Positions 31,954 through 35,624 of a stretch of 64,000 nucleotides of DNA are shown one piece after another. How positions within the stretch are numbered: position 1 is the stretch's first letter; every line of letters begins with the position of its first letter. The position numbers were made by a program, and so were the translations under genes. The stretch is taken from positions 620,001-684,000 of the forward strand of contig JAHBXH010000001.1 in NCBI GenBank assembly GCA_019636555.1, written 5' to 3'. Source of the stretch: Phycisphaeraceae bacterium (GTDB lineage Bacteria > Planctomycetota > Phycisphaerae > Phycisphaerales > UBA1924). The notes under the pieces were generated by a model. The model was not told where the DNA came from and did not search any database. It saw nothing but the letters and a program-made list of their open reading frames with translations.

Positions 31954-32784
31954 TCATCCGCGATTGGGTGTGAGACCTGGACCGGCGCGCGCGAGGATCA
32001 CTTTGGTGTACGCGGTTTGGAAACCCATGCGCCGGACGTTGCGTTCGGTTCCGGCGCCCGGGCGCGAGCCGATGGTGGCGACGAGCACGCCGCGGTCCGC
32101 GGCATGGTTCAGGCGTGCGGCGATGAGCGATTGCTGCACGCCCCGGCGCCGGAACGCGGGCAGAGTCGAAAGCCCGAAGAGGCAACCGAGTTCGCTGTGG
32201 AGTTCGAGCGAGCCCGCTCCGGCGTCGCGGGTTTGGTTCGCGTCGCGGATGCTCGCGATGAACGATTCGGTGCGCGGGTGCTTGACGATGCGCGACCAGA
32301 GCGCGAAATCGGACTCGGGCATCTCGCGATCGGGCTCTTTCGAGCCGGTCATCGCGATGCGCGAGAACGTGCGGATTTCGGATTCGTCGTTCTTGTCCAC
32401 GATCCGGATCGCGATCGTCGGGTCGGCCGGCTGCGCGGGCGCGACGCGTTCTTCCTTTGAGATTTCACGGTAGAGCACATTGTCGAAATCGCGCACACGG
32501 AAGTTGAGCGCTTCGCAGCAGCGGATCACCGACACATCCGCCAGCGGGCAGACCTCGATGCGCGGCTCGATGCCGGCCTCTTCGTAGAACGCGATGATCG
32601 ATTCAATCTCTTCACGCGCGACCGGGCCGTTCATGCCCAGGCCGACGGCGAGGTTGTTCCACGCGCCCGGTGTGCCGCGGCAGGCAACGCCTCCGGACTT
32701 GATCTCCAGCACGGCATCGGAAATCTCCGCGCAGCCGACCGCGAGGCGGGATTCTTCGAGGCGGGCGATGGAGGGGATGTCCAT
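31954..32784 (-). CDS. GNAT-family N-acetyltransferase
   Basis: A 276-residue protein with a C-terminal GNAT acetyltransferase fold: GCLFGLSTLPAFRRRGVQQS carries the acetyl-CoA pyrophosphate loop, followed by ATIGSRPGAGTERNVRRMGF. The N-terminal half contains a second region with AWNNLAVGLGMNGP and CCEALNFRVRDF, found in GNAT proteins of the tandem type. The ATG at 32784 was chosen over a TTG at 32808; neither has a clear ribosome site. It diverges from the three-Cys-motif gene, with about 70 bases between starts. Substrate unknown. Confidence 0.82.
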   Translation of the reverse strand: MDIPSIARLEESRLAVGCAEISDAVLEIKSGGVACRGTPGAWNNLAVGLGMNGPVAREEIESIIAFYEEAGIEPRIEVCPLADVSVIRCCEALNFRVRDFDNVLYREISKEERVAPAQPADPTIAIRIVDKNDESEIRTFSRIAMTGSKEPDREMPESDFALWSRIVKHPRTESFIASIRDANQTRDAGAGSLELHSELGCLFGLSTLPAFRRRGVQQSLIAARLNHAADRGVLVATIGSRPGAGTERNVRRMGFQTAYTKVILARAGPGLTPNRG

Positions 32785-32819
32785 TGAGGCGTGCAGAATA
32801 GCCTGCAAAATATGCGGTC

Positions 32820-32857
32820 TTGACAGTTCGTATTTTGTTCACTAGGCTGTTCACATG
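32820..32857 (+). promoter_or_regulatory. Putative leaderless promoter of the TcmP gene pair
   Basis: A perfect -35 box TTGACA (32820-32825), a 17-base spacer and a weak -10 box TAGGCT (32843-32848) end six bases before the ATG at 32855. Transcription would start at or next to the start codon. There is no Shine-Dalgarno before the ATG, which fits a leaderless message. Confidence 0.5.
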
Positions 32858-33646
32858 GCGCAAGGAAGCGGCATTGAGTGGACGGAAGCGACCTGGAATC
32901 CGGTTGCTGGTTGCACTCCAATTTCACCGGGCTGTTTGAACTGTTATGCCGCGCGGATGGCGCTGCGGCTTGAACGAATCAGCGAGGGTGGCTGCGCGAA
33001 ATATAAGGGCACTGCAAAGCGCGCAAAGAACGGCCGTCCGGTATTCACGGGCCGCATCAATCTCGACTATGACGCGCTCGATCTGCCGCGAAGGTGGCGC
33101 AAGGGCCGACGCATCTTTGTGAATTCGATGAGCGACCTCTTTCATGAAAACGTGCCTGAGTCATTTATCGAGGATGTCTTTGCGGTGATGAACGAATGCC
33201 CGCAACATCAGTTTCAGGTGCTGACGAAGCGGCCGGAGCGCGCTCTTAAGCTGTCACCACGCGTGCAATGGACAAGGAACATTTGGCTCGGTACGTCCGT
33301 CGAGAATGCGATGTACACCCATCGCATCGAGACACTGCGGCTAGTGCCAGCACAGATTCGGTTCCTGTCGTGCGAGCCACTGATCGGGCCGATGCCGAAA
33401 TTGCCACTCAAGGGGATTCACTGGGTGATCGTCGGTGGAGAGAGCGGGCCAGGATCAAGGTCGATGGAGCCGCGGTGGGTGGAGCAGATTCGCGATCGAT
33501 GCCTCGCAAGCGAGGTTGCGTTTTTCTTTAAGCAATGGGGCGGCGTACGGAAGCACGAGACCGGGCGAGAGCTTGACGGTCGTTTCTGGAATGAAATGCC
33601 CGAGGAATCAAAGGAATGCCCATCGTCGCAGCTGATGACGGCCTAG
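32855..33646 (+). CDS. Three-Cys-motif protein, phage Gp37/Gp68-like (DUF5131)
   Basis: A 263-residue member of the Gp37/Gp68 family. The defining cluster is Cys20, Cys27 and Cys30 in [15 protein letters not shown], a C-x6-C-x2-C pattern like a radical SAM iron-sulfur site. Other family marks are [33 protein letters not shown] and [13 protein letters not shown]. The family is found in phages and in bacterial accessory regions, and its regular partner is TcmP, which follows here with a 31-base overlap. Catalytic role is unproved; iron-sulfur and radical chemistry is predicted from the motif. Confidence 0.9.
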
Positions 33647-34443
33647 CCCTTCCAGAGGTTGGGCCGTGGTCAAAGCGAAAGTATCATTTCTTGAGCCGGT
33701 ACATTTCCGCCTTTACAGTTGCGATGCGCAATAAATGGCCCGAGCTTCACTACATCGATTTGTTTGCCGGCGCGGGATTCGCTCGTATTCGCGACACTTC
33801 GGAAATTGTTCTGGGAAGCCCAATGTTGGCTGCAGCGACTTTGACACCGTTCACTCGGATTCATGTTTGCGAACGCGACGCCGCGAACCTAAAGGCGCTG
33901 AAGACAAGACTGGGGCGAGCGCAGTTGACGAATCCTGCTCGGATAGTTCCAGGAGACGCGAACGCCGTCATCCACGATTTGGTGGCACAGGTGCCACAAC
34001 AAGGCGCCCTTTGTTTGACATTCGCCGATCCTTTCGGTCTTCATCTCGATTTCGCGACCGTTGAAGTGATTGCCAATCTCAACGGCGATCTAGTTTTGCT
34101 ATTCGCGGACAACATGGATGCACTCAGGAATTGGGCGGCGTACTACAAATCAAATCCCCAGTCAAATTTGGACAGGTTCATGGGCGAAGGCGGCTGGCGA
34201 GACTTGCTTGAGAAGTCTCCCTCCGATCAAGCAGCGGACAAGCTAAAGAAGCGGTATGAGCAACAACTTCGCGCTCGATGCGGATACAAGCACTTCGCCT
34301 ACCAAAGGGTTCGAAATAGCCACGATCGCGACATCTACACGCTCGTGTACGCCACAAAACACAAGATTGGGATCACCATTTGGAACAAAGTCTCGGGAAT
34401 CGACGAGAAAGGGCAGCGTAGTTTTATTTTCCCGGAGGACTAG
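33616..34443 (+). CDS. tcmP: Three-Cys-motif partner protein TcmP
   Basis: A 275-residue protein recognised as TcmP, the usual partner of the preceding gene. It looks like a class I SAM-dependent methyltransferase: [10 protein letters not shown] is a motif I glycine loop, IHVCERDA a motif II acidic end, and [13 protein letters not shown] stands where DNA methyltransferases carry DPPY. The N-terminal [15 protein letters not shown] is the family signature. The start ATG lies within the 3' end of the partner gene, with AAGGA directly before it and GAGG ten bases upstream. Base composition is less GC-rich than in neighbouring genes. Function of the pair is not established. Confidence 0.88.
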
Positions 34444-35525
34444 CTCAGCACGCGCTTGCCAAAATCCAGCTTCATCGCCTTCTTCGCCAGATACAACGTC
34501 TCTTCCGCGACGGCATTCGCGCGTTTCACGCCGTCCTTGATGATGTCGATGACGACATCATCGCCGCCGGGCTTTTCGTACTCCGCGCGGCGTGCACGCA
34601 TCGGCGTCAGGAGCGTGTTGATTGCCGCGGCAAGCTCTTGCTTGATGTGTCCATCGCCGATGTTGTCGCCCCGCTTGTAGCGATCTTTGAGTTCCGCGAC
34701 GCGGGCTTCGTCTGTGATGAACGCTTCGACGAATTTGAAGAGGATGTTGTCCGGATCGCCGGGCTCGGTCGGGCTCTGGCGACCGGTCGTGATCTTGTTG
34801 ATCTTCTTTTGAACTTCCTTCTCGTTATCGGAGAGGAAGATCGCGTTGCCGAGGCTCTTGCTCATCTTCTGCTTGCCGTCGCCAACCCCCGGCAGCCGCC
34901 CCACGCGCCCGATCAGCGCCTCGGGAATCGGGAAGACGCCCCCGGCCTGCACGTAGTCCTTGTCTTCCGTGCGGTTGGGCACGTTGCAGTAGAGCTGATC
35001 GAATTTGCGTGCCGCCTTGCGGCACATCTCGATGTGCGGGGCCTGATCTTCGCCCACAGGCACGTACACCGGGCGGAACGCCAGAATGTCCGCGCACTGG
35101 CCGACGGTGTACATCGGGAAACCGAAACTGTGCGAATCGCCCAGGCCCTTGGTTTCGAGTTCGTGGATGAGCGTCGGATTGCCCATCACGTCGTTGAAGC
35201 TGAGCAGCATCGCGAAGAACCACGTGAGTTCCGCGATCGCGGGGATCTCGGTCTGGAGAACGATTGTGGATTTCTTCGGGTCGATGCCCGCCGCGAGCCA
35301 GTCCTTGACGATCTCGATGGTGTCCTGGCGGATGTCGGCGGGCTTGTCGAAACGCGTGGTGAACGCGTGCATGTTGGCGAGCAGGAAGTAACAGTCGTAC
35401 TTGTCCTGGAGCGCGACGCGGCGTTCAACGCTGCCGACCCAGTGGCCAAGGTGCAGACGGCCGGTGGGGGTATCGCCGGTGAGGATGCGGGGTTTGGAAG
35501 AATTGCTGCTCGGGCTTGAGGTCAT
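34440..35525 (-). CDS. trpS: Tryptophanyl-tRNA synthetase
   Basis: Class I aminoacyl-tRNA synthetase charging tRNA-Trp in the cytoplasm. The 361 residues contain the HIGH-type motif LHLGHW (residues 24-29) and KMSKS at 220-224, the normal spacing for a bacterial TrpRS. VPVGEDQAPHIEMCR is the tryptophan/ATP pocket segment. The ATG at 35525 gives a short Ser-rich leader before RILTGDTPTG. Its stop overlaps that of tcmP by four bases in the converging direction. Confidence 0.96.
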   Translation of the reverse strand: MTSSPSSNSSKPRILTGDTPTGRLHLGHWVGSVERRVALQDKYDCYFLLANMHAFTTRFDKPADIRQDTIEIVKDWLAAGIDPKKSTIVLQTEIPAIAELTWFFAMLLSFNDVMGNPTLIHELETKGLGDSHSFGFPMYTVGQCADILAFRPVYVPVGEDQAPHIEMCRKAARKFDQLYCNVPNRTEDKDYVQAGGVFPIPEALIGRVGRLPGVGDGKQKMSKSLGNAIFLSDNEKEVQKKINKITTGRQSPTEPGDPDNILFKFVEAFITDEARVAELKDRYKRGDNIGDGHIKQELAAAINTLLTPMRARRAEYEKPGGDDVVIDIIKDGVKRANAVAEETLYLAKKAMKLDFGKRVLS

Positions 35526-35624
35526 GGGCCCAAGCGTAGGAATCGGCAAGTCGGATTGCGGGCAAGTTGGTTTTCACGCACAAGAGGAATCGCGCAGATC
35601 GAATGCAAACGTTCCGGCGCGTTC

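Follow-up and report, generated by a model that had tools for sequence, protein, structure and literature searches.

Two overlapping genes that stand between a GNAT gene and trpS raise the question of what a predicted iron-sulfur protein and a methyltransferase-like protein might do together. They lie in the window analysed here, a stretch of 64,000 nucleotides from a Phycisphaeraceae bacterium, and encode a protein of the DUF5131 (Gp37/Gp68) family and a TcmP protein. A preliminary description of the sequence had placed them on a possible accessory island and had proposed a nucleic-acid-modifying or phage-defence module. The features concerned, in window positions, are the following.

31954-32808, minus strand: GNAT gene, divergent, 5′ of the pair
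32820..32848, plus strand: candidate promoter, TTGACA (32820-32825), 17 bp, TAGGCT (32843-32848), then 6 bp and ATG
32855..33646, plus strand: DUF5131 (Gp37/Gp68) gene; product of 263 aa for which a radical-SAM fold is predicted (PF07505 match, AlphaFold2 model)
32912..32944, plus strand: C20-x6-C27-x2-C30 cluster of DUF5131, presumed [4Fe-4S] ligands
33560..34446, plus strand: exchanged segment, the last ~85 bp of DUF5131 and the whole of TcmP
33616..33646, plus strand: overlap of the DUF5131 and TcmP reading frames, 31 bp
33616..34443, plus strand: TcmP gene; product of 275 aa, predicted to be a class I methyltransferase of Trm1/RlmJ type (TIGR04474 match, AlphaFold2 model)
33679..33681, plus strand: TcmP K22, candidate counterpart of the catalytic K18 of RlmJ
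33757..33777, plus strand: TcmP motif I DLFAGAG (SAM-binding loop), residues 48-54
34027..34038, plus strand: TcmP motif IV DPFG, residues 138-141
34440-35549, minus strand: trpS, convergent, 3′ of the pair

The pair, its promoter and the gap beside trpS

Both genes are real and stand where the preliminary description had put them, each product scoring above the curated cut-off of its family. DUF5131 matches PF07505 over model positions 2-243 of 243 (E 3.9e-95, 318.4 bits, gathering cut-off 28.9), and TcmP matches the NCBIfam model TIGR04474 over positions 1-258 of 263 (146.8 bits, cut-off 53). The conserved DDGL...EVG.WS of TcmP agrees with a start at the ATG at 33616, and translational coupling of the two genes via the 31-bp overlap is likely. 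The pair indeed stands between the GNAT gene and trpS, the stop codon of TcmP overlapping that of trpS at 34440-34443. Its GC content is lower than that of its neighbours, as had been claimed, with 52.9% in TcmP and 57.6% in DUF5131 against 65.6% in the GNAT gene, 61.0% in trpS and 62.6% in the whole window; the AT content of TcmP is matched by just 2 of 632 segments of 828 bp.

A promoter that leaves no leader had also been proposed. A consensus promoter scan missed the TTGACA-17-TAGGCT element because its −10 hexamer, TAGGCT, is poor. Nevertheless, footprinting among the three congeners with the pair supports the promoter, since of the 29 bases that span both hexamers 28 are the same in every one of them, whereas the 6 bp between this element and the ATG differ. 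The transcript from this promoter is likely leaderless.

The description of the pair as accessory is borne out, and the proposed island shrinks to these two genes only. The space from trpS to the nearest conserved gene beyond it is a hot spot whose content varies between congeners, and the pair occupies it in three of the eight genomes of the genus (G000, G006 and G007). A glycosyltransferase is found there in G003 and other genes in G001 and G005. In G004 (L052:8590-9558), the spot of the pair holds a DUF6602 protein that is matched by PADLOC models of NucC-like nucleases. In G002 (L050:10494-10601), the last ~36 codons of trpS are duplicated 1 kb downstream of trpS; a 337-aa gene of no assigned family lies between trpS and the copy of its tail, and the GNAT gene is missing. 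This duplication is a footprint of DNA exchange at the 3′ end of trpS. No such duplication occurs in the window, and a search for direct repeats flanking the pair, as a sign of mobile-element insertion, gave nothing beyond chance-like matches. In G007 (L055:13213-15468), a 751-aa gene without a confident family lies beside the pair, between the GNAT gene and a cupin gene. A genome from another family of the same order, G056 (L059:9662-12508), carries the pair convergent with trpS as in the window, although its DUF5131 is only 55% identical; either both families have a hot spot here or the pair has occupied this place since long ago.

The two genes belong together well beyond this genus. Of the 80 best genome loci, which come from many phyla, 68 have TcmP no more than 500 bp from DUF5131: TcmP is upstream at 50 of them, downstream at 12 and on the opposite strand at 6. 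As adjacency is kept while gene order changes, a functional link rather than an inherited neighbourhood is indicated. The same distance holds, again in either order or orientation, for 40 of 80 viral loci, taken from a collection in which host flanks are possibly included. Among 61 genomes (that of the window and 60 relatives), both genes occur in 12, DUF5131 only in 4, TcmP only in 1 and neither in 44 (Fisher p 1.3e-8). G023 (L065:8836-9639) has an in-frame TGA in TcmP next to an intact DUF5131, and in G021 (L066:8108-10327) DUF5131 stands without TcmP beside a 335-aa protein that matched no model of Pfam or PADLOC and resembled none of the other open frames fetched.

That the two families go together was already known, as the preliminary description had said, and the pair is indeed catalogued, both in NCBIfam (TIGR04474) and as the PADLOC candidates PDC-M41/M30; the listing as a candidate defence system had been missed. 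The window proteins, which are adjacent, match PDC-M41B with 352.7 bits and PDC-M41A with 71.8 bits over 186 residues (raw scores). The statement that the pair has no established function agrees with a literature search for DUF5131, TcmP and the PDC names, which found no functional study or phage test.

Predicted folds and candidate active sites

The AlphaFold2 model of DUF5131, built from an alignment of 67 sequences, has a mean pLDDT of 92.7 and displays the partial TIM barrel of the radical-SAM fold. Its best fold match is spore photoproduct lyase (4k9r; Z 13.5, rmsd 3.0, 196 aligned residues), followed by viperin (Z 11.5, rmsd 3.5, 193 aligned), RlmN (Z 11.3) and lipoyl synthase (Z 11.2). 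The protein was placed by fold comparison only: no radical-SAM model of Pfam matched, and searches against solved structures with the single sequence or a profile gave nothing meaningful. The cysteine cluster that had been noticed in the Gp37/Gp68-like protein consists of C20, C27 and C30, which are invariant in the 67 relatives. Because its spacing is C-x6-C-x2-C and not the canonical CX3CX2C, DUF5131 is termed radical-SAM-like here. The modelled fold nevertheless supports the idea of an iron-sulfur type partner, and DUF5131 may bind a [4Fe-4S] cluster and SAM in the manner of radical-SAM enzymes.

TcmP was modelled in the same way from 84 sequences (mean pLDDT 95.1). Trm1 is the best fold match (3axs; Z 16.5, rmsd 3.7, 228 aligned residues), and RlmJ (7p8q) is matched with Z 15.3, rmsd 3.9 and 216 aligned. 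RlmJ is also found among solved structures by the TcmP sequence profile alone (E 3e-5), whereas the single sequence gave nothing useful; against Pfam, TcmP had no match at E 0.1, and hence none to TRM (PF02005). In motif I, D48, G52 and G54 are each conserved in 98% of the 84 relatives, and in motif IV, D138 is conserved in 100% and P139 in 95%. Both K18 and D164 of RlmJ are essential (PMC3814359). D138 of TcmP aligns with D164 by sequence; K22, a lysine in 99% of the relatives, probably corresponds to K18, judging by its position within the range of the structural alignment (TcmP 9-271, RlmJ 2-268).

The preliminary description had noted ADPFG in place of DPPY. The motif is present and is no defect when Trm1 is taken as the reference: the window TcmP departs from the DPP(Y/F) of the RlmJ family, and DPFG is motif IV in all eight Trm1 proteins compared. 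A literature search found no paper on Trm1 with DPFG, so that Trm1 sequences were compared instead; one archaeal genome searched yielded no Trm1. In the TcmP family, DPYG/DPFG is the commonest form of motif IV (53 of 84 relatives); a small number of members carry D-Q or different residues at this place. Some members may thus be inactive binders, as the second proline and the tyrosine of the RlmJ DPPY are missing and motif IV is in some cases aberrant. Even so, owing to the Trm1/RlmJ fold, the DPFG motif IV and the conserved candidate counterparts K22/D138, TcmP is likely a working N-methyltransferase, which would modify an exocyclic amine, most probably of an RNA. The earlier impression of a methyltransferase-like product therefore finds support in the modelled fold and in the presence of DLFAGAG and DPFG. 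Lack of a SAM pocket had been named as a point against the proposal; judged from the predicted fold and the conserved motifs only, nothing speaks against such a pocket.

Exchange of TcmP and the mobile and defence settings

The two genes have had different histories within the genus, a feature of the locus that the preliminary description did not contain. The comparison draws on three genomes, of which two are in pieces (~40 and ~230 contigs). The window DUF5131 is 92% identical to that of G006 and 87% to that of G007 in the best BLAST segments, whereas TcmP is 34% identical to both. At the DNA level, identity to G006/G007 is 67-92% up to ~33560, 30-60% over TcmP and 85-92% from 34460. The DUF5131 tree unites the three congeners at 99/98. 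For TcmP, the tree places the window protein with G038, L074 and L081 but G006 and G007 with G011, the source also of the nearest DUF5131 outside the genus, and a single TcmP clade of the three congeners is rejected (AU p 5.3e-7). Given these trees, the TcmP of the window is most simply read as the newcomer and DUF5131 as the resident. Such exchange appears to recur outside this genus as well, judging from sequence clusters: of the 13 DUF5131 clusters at 80% identity, five, including that of the window, hold at least two TcmP types with less than 40% identity. Outside the clean case of the genus, fast TcmP evolution can mimic exchange. It is insufficient on its own here because of the sharp DNA borders and the shifted position in the tree.

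A link of the pair to mobile and defence genes, the absence of which had likewise been named as a point against the proposal, was found in phages, in plasmids and beside Hma and hna genes. Phage records with a DUF5131 relative number 161 and plasmid records 406, and plasmid copies of the pair adjoin integrases. Gordonia phage Jablanski carries the pair as convergent genes 42 (DUF5131) and 43 (TcmP) between the integrase and the immunity repressor. In a prophage of G039 (L061) the pair lies between terminase-like and portal-like genes, which were assigned by reading the sequence and not by searching, and in G026 it lies 48 bp 3′ of an HmaC gene. On pSymA of S. meliloti 1021 (L277:4221-7266), a single DUF5131 gene and two TcmP genes, a short and a long one, stand beside an 845-aa gene that fits the proven anti-phage gene hna; these identities were taken from profiles made here, PADLOC matches and a published table (PMC12445080). 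In that study, hna (SMa2245) and TcmP (SMa2243) are listed as one putative transcription unit, and hna alone restores resistance (PMC12445080, 2025), so that TcmP is dispensable for Hna. On a broader scale, 192 PADLOC models were matched by the two nearest genes on each side (146 proteins) and 55 by the fifth and sixth (137 proteins), a rough count, as one protein can match many models. The defence neighbours are an association only.

Possible functions and comparison with known systems

The reading preferred here, tentatively and with a chance somewhat short of even, is that the pair forms a two-enzyme nucleic-acid-modifying module, probably anti-phage, in which a fixed radical enzyme works with an interchangeable targeting methyltransferase. 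It would be a small accessory module of bacteria and phages, most likely serving in phage conflict. DUF5131, with its predicted radical-SAM fold and its relation to spore photoproduct lyase, would be the constant part. TcmP would be a SAM-dependent N-methyltransferase that picks the nucleic-acid target, probably RNA (tRNA or rRNA), and could be exchanged while DUF5131 stays. It would bind and methylate, or at least position, an exocyclic base amine, and DUF5131 would act on that target by radical chemistry. Once modified, the target would block phage growth, or, when the pair is carried by a phage, protect that phage or exclude its rivals; death of the infected cell, a block of phage translation and self marking are the outcomes considered. 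Half of the viral DUF5131 loci have no detectable TcmP nearby, which counts against this reading.

Self marking might also be the whole purpose of the pair, which would then modify the DNA or RNA of its own element so that a phage or plasmid escapes restriction, the chromosomal copies being relics. Its frequency in phages and plasmids, and its place beside the terminase and portal genes of the G039 prophage, fit this counter-defence role. We consider it rather unlikely, as the pair lies between integrase and immunity repressor in Jablanski and is joined to Hma and hna on other replicons, as the window copy, with its conserved promoter, is isolated between core genes, and as the closest structures to the TcmP model are RNA and not DNA methyltransferases. 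Alternatively, DUF5131 might act on the TcmP protein itself, activating or restraining it as in a toxin-antitoxin system, and the exchange of partners would be an exchange of effectors. Tight adjacency with coupled translation, a radical enzyme as the constant gene next to a variable one, and the stop codon in the TcmP of G023 beside an intact DUF5131 would all suit a maturase. Against this unlikely arrangement, the nearest fold to the DUF5131 model is that of a DNA-repair radical enzyme, and an enzyme acting on a protein substrate would be expected to co-evolve with it and not to have partners of less than 35% identity.

The pair might instead serve in RNA modification or nucleic-acid repair apart from defence and be moved with mobile elements by chance. 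The two folds, those of RNA-modifying and DNA-repair enzymes, would fit this, and the pair can stand between core genes. Its patchy presence (3 of 8 congeners), the recurrent exchange of one gene and its occurrence in phages, plasmids and defence loci make this improbable. Viperin is antiviral, and as the second-best structural match to DUF5131 (Z 11.5) it suggests that DUF5131 might make a modified nucleotide that stops phage polymerases, with TcmP trimming or completing the nucleotide. This is highly improbable, since spore photoproduct lyase scores 2 Z units higher, DUF5131 is without the canonical cysteine spacing and TcmP resembles methyltransferases of polynucleotides.

If the nucleic-acid-modifying module is taken further, the pair might represent modification-based immunity, in which one radical-SAM-like enzyme works with many divergent Trm1/RlmJ-like methyltransferases swapped as cassettes, and the product would be a new radical-made modification starting from a methylated or positioned RNA base; we regard this bolder form as doubtful. 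Should the preferred reading hold, radical-SAM chemistry would be tied to phage defence by modification, with a specificity that can be swapped. Now that each protein has a predicted fold, a candidate active site and a proposed role, a vague candidate narrows to a few mutants and a single mass-spectrometry experiment, and the DUF5131 and two TcmPs beside hna in the laboratory strain S. meliloti 1021 offer a ready test system.

Target-recognition subunits are exchanged in restriction systems under phage pressure, and the pattern of TcmP exchange resembles, by analogy, that of such subunits. Among catalogued entries, PDC-M41 and PDC-M30 of PADLOC-DB v2.0.0 comprise the same two families as the pair of the window, though its TcmP is distant from the model proteins. 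The names of TIGR04474 and PF07505 carry no function; the fold assignments and the partner exchange are what is new here beyond them. Trm1, the tRNA G26 N2-dimethyltransferase, is closest to TcmP in predicted fold and shares its DPFG motif IV, but has ~380 aa against 275, with a C-terminal part that has no counterpart in TcmP, and TcmP has no match to its Pfam family. RlmJ, the 23S rRNA m6A2030 methyltransferase, has in common with TcmP the predicted fold and the GSP motif, and its catalytic lysine and aspartate have candidate counterparts there; it differs in DPPY against DPFG/DPYG and in an insert between motif I and GSP that is missing from TcmP. For DUF5131, the best fold likeness is to spore photoproduct lyase, a radical-SAM DNA repair enzyme, at ~10% identity and with cysteines spaced CX3CX2C instead of CX6CX2C. 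A weak sequence relation (E 4.2e-19) connects DUF5131 to TIGR04471, radical SAM mobile pair protein A; DUF5131 is not a member of that family (68.9 bits against a cut-off of 355), which by its name is likewise part of a mobile radical-SAM pair.
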